This document shows positions 14,524-22,007 of a DNA stretch of 64,000 nucleotides, one piece after another. Both the position numbers and the translations under genes were made by a program. The notes under the pieces were generated by a model. That model did no database searches, was not told the DNA's origin, and saw only the letters and a program-made list of their open reading frames with translations. The stretch is from Polynucleobacter sp. JS-JIR-II-50 (GTDB lineage Bacteria > Pseudomonadota > Gammaproteobacteria > Burkholderiales > Burkholderiaceae), in assembly GCF_018687895.1 (NCBI RefSeq), contig NZ_CP061307.1:1135855-1199854 (forward strand), written 5' to 3'. The stretch's first letter is position 1; the number at the start of each line of letters is the position of its first letter.

Positions 14524-14553
14524 CAGATGACTCAATGATTAAGGAGTCATCTG
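14524..14553. terminator. Inverted repeat between converging SYLF gene and leuA
   Basis: CAGATGACTC at 14524-14533 is the exact reverse complement of GAGTCATCTG at 14544-14553, giving a 10-bp stem with a 10-base loop. The leuA stop lies in the loop. There is no clean T tract on either strand, so it is a terminator-like or RNA 3'-end stabilising hairpin rather than a textbook terminator. Confidence 0.5.
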
Positions 14554-16086
14554 TGCATTGAGCTTAGCTTGACTCGGATCATGCAATTTGTTCAAGGCAG
14601 ATAAATAGGCTTTTGCAGAAGCAGCAATGATGTCTGGGTCTGTACCCACTCCATTCACAATACGACCACCTTTTGCCAAGCGTACGGTAACCTCACCTTG
14701 AGACTGCGTACCTGAAGTAATGGCATTGACAGAATAGAGCAACTGCTCTGCCCCACTCTTAGCGATTTCTTCAATTGCATTTAAGCTTGCATCTACTGGA
14801 CCATTACCTTCTGCTTCAGAGCTAATCTGTTTATCACCCATGCGGAACGTCACGCGAGATTTAGGGCGCTCGCCAGTTTCAGAATGCTGGCTTAGTGAAA
14901 TAAATTTATAGTGCTCACCCTCTTCTGCAGCAGCAGAATCAGACATGATGGCAATAATATCTTCATCAAATATGTCAGACTTTTGGTCAGCCAATGCTTT
15001 AAATCTGGTGAAGGCTTCGTTCAAATCAGCCTCAGCCTCAACAGTGATTCCCAGCTCTTGCAAGCGCTGCTTAAAGGCATTTCGGCCAGATAACTTGCCC
15101 AAAACAATCTTATTAGCAGACCAACCCACATCTTCTGCACGCATGATTTCATAGGTGTCGCGGTTCTTCAAAATACCATCTTGATGAATGCCTGAGGTAT
15201 GCGCAAAGGCATTGGCGCCTACTACGGCTTTATTAGGTTGCACAACAAAGCCAGTAATCTGAGAAACCAATTTAGAAGCAGGAACAATTTGTGTTGCATC
15301 AATGCCGCACACCATATCAAAATAGTCCTTGCGGGTCCGCAAGGCCATCACAATTTCCTCCAAGGCAGTATTACCTGCACGCTCGCCTAAGCCATTAATC
15401 GTGCACTCAATTTGACGGGCTCCGCCAATCTTTACGCCTGCCAAGGAATTGGCAACAGCCATTCCCAAGTCGTTATGGCAATGCACAGACCAAACAGCCT
15501 TATCAGAGTTAGGCACACGGGTTCGCAAAGTCTTAATAAACTCGCCATACAGCTCGGGAGTTGCATAACCTACGGTATCTGGAATGTTGATAGTAGATGC
15601 ACCTTCGTTAATAACCGCCTCAACTACTCTGCACAAGAAATCCATTTCTGAGCGATAGCCATCCTCTGCAGAAAACTCAATATCTTCAGCTAAGTTACGT
15701 GCAAAACGGATGGAGCGTTTAGCCTGTTCTAAAACTTCTTCTGGAGACATGCGTAATTTCACGGCCATGTGCAATGGACTTGTTGCCAAGAATGCATGAA
15801 TTCTTTTTGCATTAGCCGCTTGTAATGCATCAGCGGCTCGTGTGATGTCCTTATCGTTAGCTCTAGCCAAGGAACAAACAATCGAGTCCTTAACAGCGGC
15901 AGCCACCGCAGATATAGCCTGGAAGTCGCCCTCCGAGCTAGCAGCAAAGCCTGCCTCAATCACATCCACTTTAAGACGCTCTAACTGGCGCGCAATGCGT
16001 ACTTTTTCGTCTTTAGTCATGGATGCGCCAGGTGACTGCTCACCATCACGCAAGGTGGTATCAAATATGATTACTTTGTCGCTCAT
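14539..16086 (-). CDS. leuA: 2-isopropylmalate synthase
   Basis: This enzyme condenses acetyl-CoA with 2-oxoisovalerate, the first committed step of leucine synthesis. It has 515 residues. The N-terminal TIM barrel begins with [16 protein letters not shown] and includes the metal-binding HCHNDLG segment. The C-terminal LeuA regulatory domain, which binds leucine, contains [17 protein letters not shown] and [12 protein letters not shown]. The ATG at 16086 is preferred over a GTG just before it because GGAGAG lies 5 bases upstream. The leader upstream holds an apparent leucine attenuator. Confidence 0.97.
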
Positions 16087-16140
16087 CACTACTCTCCGGT
16101 TTTAAATACTTCTGAACTTCTTCAGATAACTCAATCTTAT

Positions 16141-16169
16141 AAAACAAAAACCCCAGCAATTAGCTGGGG
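16141..16169 (-). terminator. Attenuator terminator in the leuA leader
   Basis: On the minus strand CCCCAGC (16169-16163) and GCTGGGG (16157-16151) form a 7-bp stem around TAATT, followed by TTTTTGTTTT (16150-16141). It lies 54 bases upstream of leuA and 41 bases after the leader-peptide stop. Its 5' arm (GCCCCAGCT, 16170-16162) can instead pair, with one bulge, with AGCTTGGGGC at 16233-16224 inside the leader ORF. Those are mutually exclusive terminator and antiterminator folds. Confidence 0.85.
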
Positions 16170-16210
16170 CTGGTATGTGGTGGTTAATGAATGTGCTTTA
16201 TCTCATTAAC

Positions 16211-16288
16211 TCAGGCCTTACCCGCCCCAAGCTTTAGGCTTAGTGCTAGCAGAAGGAGGCCAGATAAAGGTGAGAAATTCATCAACAT
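16211..16288 (-). CDS. leuL: Leucine-rich leader peptide of the leuA attenuator
   Basis: A 25-codon ORF starts at the ATG at 16288 and ends at TGA 16213-16211. It contains ten leucine codons, four of them consecutive at codons 11-14 (GLLLLALSLKL), using CTC, CTT, CTG and CTA. This resembles the GLLLLNA core of the enterobacterial leu leader peptide. It lies just upstream of a terminator with a possible antiterminator. There is no strong Shine-Dalgarno sequence. A TATATT element 6 bases before the ATG could make the message nearly leaderless, or read-through from pssA could supply it. An internal ATG at codon 3 is an alternative start. Confidence 0.8.
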   Translation of the reverse strand: MLMNFSPLSGLLLLALSLKLGAGKA

Positions 16289-16316
16289 GGAATTAATATA
16301 CCCCAAAAATAGGGAA

Positions 16317-17180
16317 TTAGCTAAAACGTTTACCGCTGAGACGCTCCCAAGCCCAAATTACATAGCCAGAGATGGAGTACACCACGAATAAACCAAACAG
16401 CGTTAAGGGCGGATTTGAGGAAATCAAGACAAAGGTCAAGATCATTAATACCATCACACCGAATGGCACTCGGTAACGGACATCCAGGGCCTTACCACTA
16501 TAAAAGCGGGCATTAGAAACCATGGTGAGTCCAGCATAGACAGCGATAAAGAAGGTAATCCAAGGGATTGCTGTATCGCGAACTGGAATCTTATTGTCAT
16601 CAGCCAACCAAATAAAGCCAGCCATTAATGCGCCTGCAGCCGGACTTGGCAGACCTTGAAAAAACTTCTTATCCACTACGCCCGTATTCACATTAAAGCG
16701 AGCTAAACGCAAGGCAGCGCCAGCACAATATGTGAATGCCGCCAACCACCCCCACTTACCTAAATCTTTTAAAGCCCACTCATAAGCAACCAAAGCAGGC
16801 GCAACCCCAAATGAGACCATATCAGCAAGAGAATCATACTGCTCACCAAATGCGCTTTGAGTGTTGGTCATACGGGCCACACGGCCATCCATTCCGTCCA
16901 ATACCATTGAAGCAAAGATAGCGATTGCCGCAATCTCAAACTGGTGATTCATGGCGTTCACAATGGCATAGAAGCCACAAAACAAAGCTGCGGTTGTAAA
17001 GGCATTTGGAAGCAGATAGATGCCCTTGCTGCGTAAGCGGGGCTTTTGAGGATGCAACTCCTCTACTTCGTAATCAATACCATCACCTAAGTCTTCAGCC
17101 CATTGATCTTCTAAAGAAGTAACACGTCTCTGAGAGAGACGACTTCGGTCAATACGACCACGACGGCGAAATGTAGTCAA
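16317..17180 (-). CDS. pssA: CDP-diacylglycerol-serine O-phosphatidyltransferase
   Basis: This membrane enzyme makes phosphatidylserine from CDP-diacylglycerol and serine. It has about 287 residues. It shows the CDP-alcohol phosphotransferase signature DGMDGRVARMTNTQSAFGEQYDSLADMVSFG, followed by several membrane spans. The frame is open to 17267, but that part overlaps psd. I chose a TTG at 17180 (TTFRRRGRIDRSRLS), with GGGA upstream and a 28-base gap after psd. psd and pssA form the phosphatidylethanolamine pathway pair inside the branched-chain amino acid cluster. Confidence 0.93.
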   Translation of the reverse strand: MTTFRRRGRIDRSRLSQRRVTSLEDQWAEDLGDGIDYEVEELHPQKPRLRSKGIYLLPNAFTTAALFCGFYAIVNAMNHQFEIAAIAIFASMVLDGMDGRVARMTNTQSAFGEQYDSLADMVSFGVAPALVAYEWALKDLGKWGWLAAFTYCAGAALRLARFNVNTGVVDKKFFQGLPSPAAGALMAGFIWLADDNKIPVRDTAIPWITFFIAVYAGLTMVSNARFYSGKALDVRYRVPFGVMVLMILTFVLISSNPPLTLFGLFVVYSISGYVIWAWERLSGKRFS

Positions 17181-19457: not shown

Positions 19458-21244
19458 TACAGATCCTCGCTACCCAAAAGCATTTCAGTAATACCCTTGC
19501 CTGCTTGAACCATAGGCCAAACATTTTCTTCTGGGTCAGTCTGGAAGTCCATAAACACCGTACGATCTTTTAAGCGAATCGCCTCTTTGAGCGCGCCCTC
19601 AACATCGGATTTTTTCTCGATACGCATACCAACGTGACCATAAGCCTCTGCCAACTTCACAAAGTCAGGCAAAGAATCCATGTATGAGCTCGAATAACGT
19701 TTGTTATAGGTGAGCTCTTGCCACTGGCGAACCATACCCAGGTAACGGTTGTTCAAAGACACGATCTTCACAGGAGTGTTGTATTGCTTACAGGTAGAAA
19801 GCTCCTGAATACACATCTGAATTGAGCCTTCACCAGTAATGGCAAATACATCCTTATCAGGAAATGCTTTCTTGATACCCATGGCATAAGGCAAACCTAC
19901 GCCCATGGTACCCAGACCACCTGAATTAATCCAACGACGCGGCTGATCAAACTTATAGAACTGAGCAGCCCACATTTGATGTTGACCTACGTCAGATGTA
20001 ATGAATGCATCACCACCAGTGAGCTCCCACAACTTTTGAACCACGTACTGTGGCTTCACAATTTGTGAGGCTTCGTCGTACTTCAAGCAATCTTTTTTGC
20101 GCCACTCATTAATTTGATCCCACCAAGCAGCAACTTTGTCGCCATTCTTACGTGGACCAGCAGCTTTCAATTGGGCAGTCATCTCTACCAATACTTCTTT
20201 GAGATTACCAACAATAGGAACATCTACTTTGACACGCTTTGAGATAACGGAAGGATCGATATCAATATGAATGATCTTGCGCGGATGACTTGCAAAGTGC
20301 TGTGTATTACCAATCACGCGGTCATCAAAACGTGCGCCAATGGCAATCAACACATCACTGTGTTGCATAGCCATATTGGCTTCGTATGTACCGTGCATAC
20401 CGAGCATACCCAAGAACTGTGGGCTAGTTCCAGGGAACCCACCTAAGCCCATGAGGGTATTGGTTACTGGATAACCTAGTAAGTCAGCAAACTCTTTTAA
20501 CTCAGGAGCTGCATCAGACAGTATCACGCCACCACCGGTATAGATGTATGGGCGCTCTGCCTCTTGCAGTAACGCTACCGCTTTACGAATCTGGCCGCTG
20601 TGACCCTTCACAACAGGGTTATAAGAACGCATTTCCAAGGTTTCTGGATAAACAAATGGGCCCTTAGCCGCGGATACGTCCTTCGGGATGTCGATCAACA
20701 CGGGGCCTGGTCGACCTGTCTGCGCAATATGAAAAGCTTTCTTCAAAACCAACGGAAGATCTTTGACATCTTTCACGAGGAAGTTGTGCTTCACTACTGG
20801 GCGAGTAATACCAACGGTATCAGCCTCTTGGAATGCATCTTCACCAATAGCGTACGTTGGTACGTTACCGCTGATGATCACCAGTGGAATGGAATCGGTA
20901 TATGCAGTTGCAATACCAGTCACCGCATTGGTAACACCAGGACCAGAGGTAACCAATGCAACACCAACCTTACCGGTAGCGCGAGCATAGCCATCGGCAG
21001 CGTGAACAGCTGCTTGCTCATGGCGAACCAAGATATGTTCAAACTTATCTTGCTTAAAAATTTCATCGTAGATAAAGAGAACGGATCCGCCTGGGTAACC
21101 CCAGACAAATTCAACACCCTCTTTGTGCAATGCATGCACAAGCATTTCTGCGCCAATCATTTCTGGAGGTGCAGCATCATTGTTTGTATTTGTTGAGTCT
21201 TTGTTAGCTTTAGAAGCTAAGAATTCGGCGCTGCTTGTATTCAT
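19457..21244 (-). CDS. ilvB: Acetolactate synthase large (catalytic) subunit
   Basis: This 595-residue, thiamine-diphosphate enzyme catalyses the first common step of valine, leucine and isoleucine synthesis. The catalytic Glu lies in VRHEQAAVHAADGYARATG near residue 85, and the ThDP/Mg motif in TGEGSIQMCIQELSTCKQYN. The PYR, central FAD-binding-like and PP domains appear in order. The N-terminal ~25 residues are Ser/Asn-rich and precede the usual GAEMLVHAL start of the domain. AAAGGACG before the ATG is a good ribosome-binding site. Confidence 0.97.
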   Translation of the reverse strand: MNTSSAEFLASKANKDSTNTNNDAAPPEMIGAEMLVHALHKEGVEFVWGYPGGSVLFIYDEIFKQDKFEHILVRHEQAAVHAADGYARATGKVGVALVTSGPGVTNAVTGIATAYTDSIPLVIISGNVPTYAIGEDAFQEADTVGITRPVVKHNFLVKDVKDLPLVLKKAFHIAQTGRPGPVLIDIPKDVSAAKGPFVYPETLEMRSYNPVVKGHSGQIRKAVALLQEAERPYIYTGGGVILSDAAPELKEFADLLGYPVTNTLMGLGGFPGTSPQFLGMLGMHGTYEANMAMQHSDVLIAIGARFDDRVIGNTQHFASHPRKIIHIDIDPSVISKRVKVDVPIVGNLKEVLVEMTAQLKAAGPRKNGDKVAAWWDQINEWRKKDCLKYDEASQIVKPQYVVQKLWELTGGDAFITSDVGQHQMWAAQFYKFDQPRRWINSGGLGTMGVGLPYAMGIKKAFPDKDVFAITGEGSIQMCIQELSTCKQYNTPVKIVSLNNRYLGMVRQWQELTYNKRYSSSYMDSLPDFVKLAEAYGHVGMRIEKKSDVEGALKEAIRLKDRTVFMDFQTDPEENVWPMVQAGKGITEMLLGSEDL

Positions 21245-21380
21245 TTTCTTTCGTCCTTTGCAATTTTCGGCAAAAAATTGTTTGGTCTGTTCTATCTCTT
21301 GCTTATGGCCCGAGTTCGAACGGCGCTGCTACCGGAAAAAACCACTTCTTGAATGAGATTCTAGGTAGTAAGCCCTATAT

Positions 21381-21408
21381 TCTATAGCAATCCCCTAAAA
21401 TGACTCAA
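21381..21408 (-). promoter_or_regulatory. Candidate sigma-70 promoter of ilvBNC
   Basis: On the minus strand TTGAGT (21408-21403) and TATAGA (21386-21381) are separated by 16 bases. Transcription would start near 21374, giving a leader of about 130 nt. That leader contains no run of branched-chain codons in a plausible start-to-stop frame, so I see no ilv attenuator here. This is a consensus match by eye only. Confidence 0.45.
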
Positions 21409-21437
21409 TTCTCACAGATTCAGGTCTAATCCATTGC

Positions 21438-22007
21438 ATGGCATCAGCCCAAGAACTATCCGACTTTCTCAGTAGTGTCGAGCAGCGCGCTTTTAAGCAA
21501 GCGGTTTACGCCGTGCGTGACGATGATGCTGCGATGGATATCGTGCAAGATGCCATGATCAAATTAGCGGAGAAATACGGCGATCGACCAGCAGGAGAAC
21601 TTCCCCTAGTATTCACCAGAATTCTGCAAAATCGCATTCATGATTGGTTTAGAAGGCAAAAGGTTAGAAATACCTGGGTCACCTTGTTTTCCAATATGGG
21701 CAAAAAGACTGATGAAAGCGATGATTTTGACCCTCTAGAGTCCCTTTCGGCCCCTGATGACAGTGAAATACACCAAGATGGAGCTCAAAAGCTTGAAAAA
21801 AGTCAGCTTTTACAGGCTTTGGAGTCAGAAATATCTAAATTGCCTGTACGTCAACGAGAAGCCTTCCTGATGCGTTATTGGGATGAGCTAAGCATTACTG
21901 AGACGGCCAAAGCAATGAGTTGCAGTGAAGGTAGCGTCAAAACGCACTGTTCTAGAGCCACCCAGACATTAGCTAAAGCATTGAAATTAAAAGGAATTAC
22001 GCTGTGA
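21438..22007 (+). CDS. RNA polymerase sigma factor, ECF/sigma-70 family
   Basis: This 189-residue protein has sigma region 2 (AVYAVRDDDAAMDIVQDAMIKLAEKY), an Asp/Glu/Ser-rich linker at about residues 95-125, and sigma region 4 (KLPVRQREAFLMRYWDELSITETAKAMSCSEGSVKTHCSRA). It probably directs RNA polymerase to an envelope-related regulon. It is the first gene of a plus-strand cassette and overlaps the next gene by 4 bases. That downstream membrane protein is a candidate anti-sigma partner, which is inference from position. Confidence 0.92.
   Translation: MASAQELSDFLSSVEQRAFKQAVYAVRDDDAAMDIVQDAMIKLAEKYGDRPAGELPLVFTRILQNRIHDWFRRQKVRNTWVTLFSNMGKKTDESDDFDPLESLSAPDDSEIHQDGAQKLEKSQLLQALESEISKLPVRQREAFLMRYWDELSITETAKAMSCSEGSVKTHCSRATQTLAKALKLKGITL

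Follow-up and report, generated by a model that had tools for sequence, protein, structure and literature searches.

The element described here lies in the genome of Polynucleobacter sp. JS-JIR-II-50, in a stretch of 64,000 nucleotides that was analysed as a whole (the window; all positions are given within it), where it sits on the minus strand between the stop codon of pssA (16319-16317) and the ATG of leuA at 16086 (Table 1). The original prediction placed a lone leuA at the end of an ilvBNC-psd-pssA cluster, and NCBIfam models bore this out for all six genes (leuA, pssA, psd, ilvC, ilvN, and ilvB); beyond leuA, no leu genes are found among the genes identified in the window. leuA has its own Shine-Dalgarno sequence, GGAG. 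The space before it holds an ORF that can be read directly from the sequence, from an ATG at 16288 to a TGA at 16213-16211, encoding the peptide MLMNFSPLSGLLLLALSLKLGAGKA; this is the 25-codon, Leu-rich leader ORF that had been predicted, although it contains nine Leu codons by count (TTG, TTA, CTC CTT CTG CTA, CTA, CTA, and CTT) rather than the ten first reported. The four Leu codons in a row are seen directly, as stated before. A search by eye of the region upstream of ilvB (21200-21520) found no comparable leader.

Table 1. Features of the leuA leader region and their positions in the window.
Feature	Positions	Strand	Basis
Leader peptide ORF (leuL), 25 codons, nine Leu codons	16211..16288	-	read from sequence
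Four-Leu run CTC CTT CTG CTA (codons 11-14), proposed stall site	16247..16258	-	
Weak -35-like hexamer TTAGCT (3/6), 18 nt before the -10, overlapping the last pssA codons	16319..16324	-	
-10 hexamer TATATT, ending 6 nt before the leader ATG	16295..16300	-	sequence, locus comparison
Protector 5' strand CTAAGC (segment 1), pairs with 16232-16227	16238..16243	-	folding, alignment
Antiterminator 5' strand (segment 2) AGCTTGGGGCGGGT, within codons 19-23, pairs with 16162-16174	16220..16233	-	
Hairpin nested in the antiterminator (16213-16202 with 16191-16181)	16181..16213	-	folding, alignment
Intrinsic terminator hairpin (segments 3 and 4)	16149..16171	-	terminator scan, conserved pairing
T tract of the terminator	16141..16148	-	sequence, terminator scan
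leuA, 2-isopropylmalate synthase, predicted controlled gene	14539..16086	-	sequence, NCBIfam model

The terminator and T tract expected ahead of leuA were confirmed: the hairpin (16171-16149) has nine pairs and a 5-nt loop and is followed by TTTGTTTTAT, and 54 bases separate 16141 from the leuA ATG. There are three terminator-like sites in 15500-17000, compared with 1.7 in shuffled sequences, and the one before leuA has the most pairs. The alternative pairing that had been proposed can also form, between AGCTTGGGGC at 16233-16224 and the terminator 5' arm at 16170-16162; this antiterminator extends past the segment first described, continuing through GGT/ACC and enclosing a further hairpin. 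A third helix, which we call the protector, joins CTAAGC of the Leu region to GCTTGG of the antiterminator strand. The best duplex between the leader end and the terminator 5' arm has an energy of -20.8 kcal/mol; pairing as good is reached by 4 of 5000 random 36-mers from the window, but by 473 of 5000 recodings of its leader end that keep the peptide unchanged. Antiterminator pairing is thus favoured already by the peptide sequence. The leader RNA as a whole folds better than all 200 of its shuffled versions (z -3.83).

We modelled the folding of this RNA with a ribosome assumed to cover 15 nt from the P site. With the ribosome on codons 11-14, at a stage before the terminator 3' arm exists, the 5' arm pairs with the leader codons at 0.88-0.89; when it is moved to the stop codon, the modelled 5' arm is in the terminator at 0.97. 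Ribosome-masked folding in this way reproduces the logic that had been put forward, in which a stalled ribosome allows the antiterminator and a ribosome at the stop codon allows termination. In the finished naked RNA the modelled terminator reaches 0.98. Since the finished RNA carrying a stalled ribosome still prefers the terminator (0.83 vs. 0.12), the switch would have to be kinetic, being chosen during transcription; and since the naked arm pairs with the leader codons at 0.75 before the 3' arm is made, the protector provides no clean default in the model.

We then compared the element across the genus. Of 121 Polynucleobacter genomes, 118 gave a LeuA match, and a covariance model of the element, built on 50 sequences that come partly from the searched genomes (which match by construction), gave matches in 119 of the 121, including every one of the 96 with completeness of 90% or more and contamination of 5% or less. 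Each matching genome has one strong match (E 2.4e-11 or better), with extra weak ones (E 2e-5 or worse) in a few genomes. The two misses are incomplete assemblies: one is 78% complete and has no leuA match (G028), and in the other (G074; 56% complete) leuA is cut at the start of a contig. The match lies directly before leuA in all 13 genomes compared by eye, the window's included; in three others (G029, G053, and G092) it is on a contig without a leuA match. For comparison of individual loci we used 30 loci with upstream DNA (L002-L031), 60 from more distant genomes (one of them too short), and extra loci from a family search and from named contigs, whose LeuA, up to 99% identical, also points to this genus; removal of duplicates left 104 Polynucleobacter loci. 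By a rule that combines Leu content with the -10, the leader is present in 103 of these 104 loci, and leader and terminator together in 102; the exceptions are L175, whose ATG lies 9 nt after the hexamer, and L030, which has a shortened stem. In one single-contig Polynucleobacter genome (G102), leuA itself (C1:1364254-1365783; loci L141 and L179) contains eight in-frame stops (six TGA, one TAG, and one TAA), and despite them the leader, the antiterminator strand, and the terminator look intact.

The pairings were examined in a structure alignment of 50 of 52 representatives (L150 and L159 were left out). Two biases apply to the figures that follow: a structure taken from the sequence of the window itself, as here, has an advantage over slid versions, and relatedness raises the apparent significance in the shuffle tests. 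The antiterminator with its nested hairpin has 84.0% of its cells paired (25-50% when slid; 50 distinct sequences) and 12 pairs changed on both sides, vs. 6.6 in shuffles (reached by none of 500) and 7-10 when slid. Four of these two-sided pairs are in the antiterminator proper and eight in the nested hairpin. The terminator is paired in 100% of 450 cells across the 50 sequences. For the protector, 80.6% of cells are paired in the same 50 sequences (35-57% when slid), 32 cells are changed on both sides vs. 14.5 in shuffles, and the covariation score lies above those of all 500 shuffles; its count of two-sided pairs (eight) is reached by 125 of 500 shuffles. The original prediction was to be given up if the ORF or the alternative pairings were not conserved in close relatives; both are conserved, and the claim stands. 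We also considered a long helix that appears in the naked fold, between the start-codon region and 16191-16182, and rejected it: 74.5% of its cells are paired, vs. at most 51.8% when slid, and its two-sided changes and covariation are no better than those of some slid versions.

Because relatedness and the self-derived structure bias the shuffled and slid comparisons, the comparison between clades matters. The leader end and the terminator arm differ together between clades: in one Polynucleobacter clade CCUGGGGUC goes with GAACCCCAGU, and in the window's clade AGCUUGGGGC goes with GCCCCAGCU. In a swap test of four arm types, with up to 15 loci per clade (only four in the fourth clade), cognate leaders were the best mean partners for each of the four; for the Comamonadaceae-like arm, whose bin holds all remaining terminator loci (including L236, L240, and L244, which are foreign by sequence), the cognate advantage is marginal (-13.3 vs. 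-13.2). Seen from the leaders, the window-type ones slightly prefer the C-rich arms of L196, L223, L224, and L233 over their own (-20.0 vs. -19.4), and the Comamonadaceae-like ones clearly prefer these arms over their own (-16.2 vs. -13.3). Foreign arms that bind at least as well amount to 308 of 5073, 217 of 1729, 1040 of 4240, and 1 of 568 in the four clades.

The longest Leu run has at least four codons in 82 of 103 Polynucleobacter leaders, and CTA makes up 291 of their 891 Leu codons (33%), compared with 8.6% of the 1499 Leu codons in 30 long ORFs of the window, in which it is the rarest of the six. The window's leader taken alone has CTA at three of nine Leu codons (p 0.036); in the leaders of other Burkholderiales the share is 152 of 493 (31%), the baseline usage being known for the window's genes alone. 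The end of the peptide, LGAGKA, is strongly conserved within the window's clade. Six leaders (L007, L014, L016, L035, L036, and L173) have a four-codon insertion (ASGK, PSGK, PSRK, and the like) directly before the final Leu run, and the antiterminator is retained in them. The arrangement is also singular within the window: in a scan of 960 ATG starts of short ORFs on both strands (10-45 codons, terminator at most 120 nt away, nested starts counted separately), seven starts have a strong terminator downstream, one has a -10 at start-codon spacing, and ATG 16288 is the sole start with both.

The position of the -10 bears on how the leader is translated. As TATATT ends 6 nt upstream, the expected first base of the transcript is the A of the leader ATG or a neighbour of it. 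Bases similar to the -35-like hexamer are present in other Polynucleobacter, and a generic sigma-70 promoter scan of 15500-17000 reported no promoter. An earlier count, which found the -10 in 104 of 104 loci, had chosen the ATG by its spacing and was biased; we replaced it by a test in which the leader ORF is picked by Leu content alone, and a hexamer matching at 5/6 or better is then sought 6-7 nt before an in-frame ATG. By this test the -10 is present in 94 of 96 Polynucleobacter leaders (eight of the 104 loci gave no ORF), vs. 3 of 1446 other ATGs in the loci that gave an ORF, which argues that the leader mRNA is probably leaderless. Another pick free of spacing missed 12 of the 104 Polynucleobacter loci, mostly through a wrong frame, and did worse elsewhere. 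Among other Burkholderiales, where 69 of 147 loci gave no ORF by Leu content, the hexamer is found at 5/6 or better in 31 of 78 leaders and at 4/6 in 62 of 78 (background 25 of 1446). The leaderless start was overlooked in the original prediction, and it probably makes the element a variant of the classical leu attenuator.

We consider it unlikely that the same leucine attenuator is instead served by an ordinary leadered mRNA, begun inside pssA and translated either behind GGGG at 16304-16301, as a poor Shine-Dalgarno sequence, or from TTG at 16306. With the anti-Shine-Dalgarno, the GGGG forms a duplex of -6.0 kcal/mol, and the reading frame is uninterrupted from the in-frame TTG on, giving 31 codons; the blank result of the promoter scan also speaks for such an mRNA. 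However, the GGGG sits right next to the -10 and 13-16 nt ahead of the leader ATG, a start at the TTG would be upstream of the -10, and the spacing of the -10 in 94 of 96 leaders has to be set against a start inside pssA. Shine-Dalgarno pairing of -4 kcal/mol or better is reached by 33 of 103 Polynucleobacter leaders (the window's included) vs. 96 of 103 leuA starts, and by none of 84 leaders in other Burkholderiales vs. 75 of 84 of their leuA starts, both leader sets having been chosen partly by the -10. In this second set, so chosen, the base preceding the leader ATG is C in 84% of the leaders.

Our main reading, to which we give a probability of about 0.86, is thus a ribosome-mediated leucine attenuator of leuA whose leader is translated from a leaderless mRNA; for the actual 5' end, translation, stalling, and the response to leucine, it is what we infer from the features above. 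A promoter in the last part of pssA and the following gap of 28 nt would place the first base of the mRNA on the A of the leader ATG or beside it, and the leader peptide would be translated from this leaderless mRNA. When charged leucyl-tRNA is scarce, the ribosome would stall on codons 11-14, covering the protector strand (16243-16238) and leaving 16233-16220 free to pair with 16174-16162 before the terminator 3' arm is made, so that polymerase would read into leuA. When leucine is plentiful, a ribosome at the stop codon would cover 16233-16220, and the terminator (16171-16149) would form; with no ribosome the protector could form, and the finished RNA would favour termination. Very probably, then, LeuA, the first enzyme of leucine synthesis, is made only when leucine is short, by means of a Leu-rich peptide gene and a switchable hairpin. 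As judged from its sequence, the element works like a classical leu attenuator and shows most of the testable features that define one, the leucine response being predicted.

Three further explanations bear on what the leader does. It seems improbable that, besides attenuation, the terminated leader RNA or its peptide also acts in trans, as rnTrpL and peTrpL do in Sinorhizobium (PMC7298713, in extract): this precedent and the strongly conserved LGAGKA end would fit such a role, but this end also codes for the antiterminator strand, and that may be why it is conserved. A plain terminator of the ilvBNC-psd-pssA operon, next to a Leu-rich ORF that is there by coincidence, would be useful in itself after pssA and agrees with the naked RNA folding into the terminator; it is very improbable in view of the leader being kept in 103 of 104 non-redundant loci, the paired changes in antiterminator and protector, and the enrichment of CTA. 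Sensing of leucine by a non-ribosomal means (a T-box, a riboswitch, or a protein), with the ORF secondary, is just as improbable: nothing specific speaks for it, the Rfam matches of the window at gathering score are three tRNAs only, the eight sub-threshold matches near the element all have E values of 1.8 or worse, and the helices fit a ribosome switch.

At gathering score, no Rfam family matching the element (T-box, riboswitches, and leader families) was found in the window or in 37 related loci: 20 of these loci gave no match at all, and the other 17 gave only the ilvH RNA (RF02993), far upstream, in three of them. These three are on Comamonadaceae-like contigs (L056:53-120, L067:251-318, and L079:19-86), about 3 kb upstream of leuA; no ilvH RNA was seen in the Rfam scan of the window.

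Beyond the genus, Leu-rich leaders with a like start arrangement precede leuA in many Burkholderiales families. Among 147 non-redundant loci from outside Polynucleobacter, 44 have a leader with a terminator, 40 a leader without one, and 63 no leader; the leader rule used here is looser, overlooks some leaders that are seen by eye (for example, L256, L257, and L260), and makes some doubtful calls in both bins. The terminators are of several kinds: those of the Comamonadaceae-like loci have the form GGCCCG...CGGGCC, and those of L196, L223, L224, and L233 the form CGCCCCGGCC...GCCGGGGCG. In a search of 100 genomes of the order, the covariance model gave strong matches in the three Polynucleobacter and, in three others, matches of only E 0.0013-0.0043, so that its reach ends with the genus. 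In the group without terminators, the peptide often ends in GLLLRPAR or similar, the ORF contains a hairpin (z averages -1.44 in 40 loci and is below -1 in 25 of them), and a C-rich stretch follows the stop codon; the consensus fold of this group is weak, with 20 of 24 loci aligned and four dropped that the leader rule had missed.

Several sets of these loci can be described individually. Leu leaders without an intrinsic terminator are present in L205, L208, L213, L214, L216-L220, L222, L239, and L242, and further ones in L246, L252, L259, and L268. In many of these loci the hairpin inside the ORF lies directly before CTGCTGCTG, the peptide ends in GLLLR(P/L)AR or in VRAH/GRAH, and a C-rich stretch is found past the stop codon; the stem varies in sequence yet stays paired, for example, CCCAAC/GTTGGG in L252 and CCCAGAT/ATCTGGG in L239. 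Leaders in L068, L070, L077, L111, and L201 (the first four of which we take to be Oxalobacteraceae) end in LLVR or YLLR and contain a stable hairpin within the ORF (z -2.2 to -4.8), with no terminator by the leader and terminator rule. In other genera of the window's family (L194, L203, L227, L228, and L234), leader-like ORFs such as METTTFPLLSLLAGAPLRALALARLPR follow TATAGT, and most of these loci then carry a GCGTCGCC...GGTGGCG-like hairpin without a T tract.

We lean slightly toward the view that a leaderless Leu leader before leuA is ancestral to Burkholderiales, or roughly the betaproteobacteria, and that its sensing half was kept while its output half was replaced. The half that was kept would be the promoter abutting the ATG together with the Leu codons. 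As to the output, the terminators of Polynucleobacter, of the Comamonadaceae-like loci, and of L196, L223, L224, and L233 would on this view be unrelated to each other, and many other families would have an undescribed, terminator-free platform consisting of the hairpin inside the ORF and the C-rich stretch. The wider loci could serve as a natural series, with a single sensor coupled to outputs of several kinds, by which the evolution of attenuators becomes testable. For Polynucleobacter, the element would represent a clear leucine switch on the leuA of a small-genomed genus and, if leaderless as predicted, one in which attenuation depends on ribosomes starting at an AUG with nothing 5' of it. 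In mRNAs that continue from pssA into the element, this ORF would have no more than a poor start signal, and most of these mRNAs should terminate; besides sensing leucine, the element may therefore insulate the operon.

Leu attenuators are textbook knowledge in enterobacteria, and the leu attenuator of E. coli and Salmonella follows a logic of protector, antiterminator, and terminator. Our search of the full-text literature, judged by titles and the beginnings of abstracts (Vitreschak 2004, FEMS Microbiol Lett, lies outside it), found no description of a betaproteobacterial leu leader, and extracts of PMC2965389 and PMC2864571 do not mention one. Both Leu attenuators and leaderless leaders have precedents in other bacteria; their combination here is probably new, as far as this search reached.

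Extracts of the review PMC6123439 name attenuation as the main means by which Gram-negative bacteria repress branched-chain genes, cite leader peptides from a range of Gram-negative species, and give the leu leader of E. coli as 28 amino acids with four Leu. The Polynucleobacter element is like leuLABCD of E. coli and Salmonella in having a leader peptide with Leu codons, and predicted leucine attenuation, upstream of leuA (PMC6123439, in extract); unlike in leuLABCD, leuA follows ilvBNC-psd-pssA instead of heading leuABCD, the leader has nine Leu codons, the rare CTA among them, and the mRNA probably begins with the leader ATG. Campylobacter jejuni LeuL is also a Leu leader with rare codons (CUA, CUC, and CUG), but it precedes a leuABCD operon and is not called leaderless in the extracts of PMC3847290, where orthologues of Campylobacter leader peptides were predicted from location and ribosome binding site. 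Leaderless leader peptides before branched-chain genes are described, in the extracts at hand, for leuL1 and ilvL of Streptomyces (PMC8079986) and for ilvB of Corynebacterium diphtheriae (PMC5784534), and in this respect our predicted leader is like leuL1 of Streptomyces lividans and the C. diphtheriae ilvB leader; a typical intrinsic terminator is said to be missing from Streptomyces leuL1 (PMC8079986, in extract), whereas the Polynucleobacter element has one. Actinobacterial leuA is associated with the LEU pseudoknot element, in which Leu codons are paired to the Shine-Dalgarno sequence of leuA (PMC1262725, in extract). Finally, in trpL/rnTrpL of Sinorhizobium meliloti, also a proteobacterium, the 5' end of the attenuator RNA is the leader ATG (PMC7298713, in extract), as predicted here for Polynucleobacter, although that attenuator concerns Trp and is found in an alphaproteobacterium.
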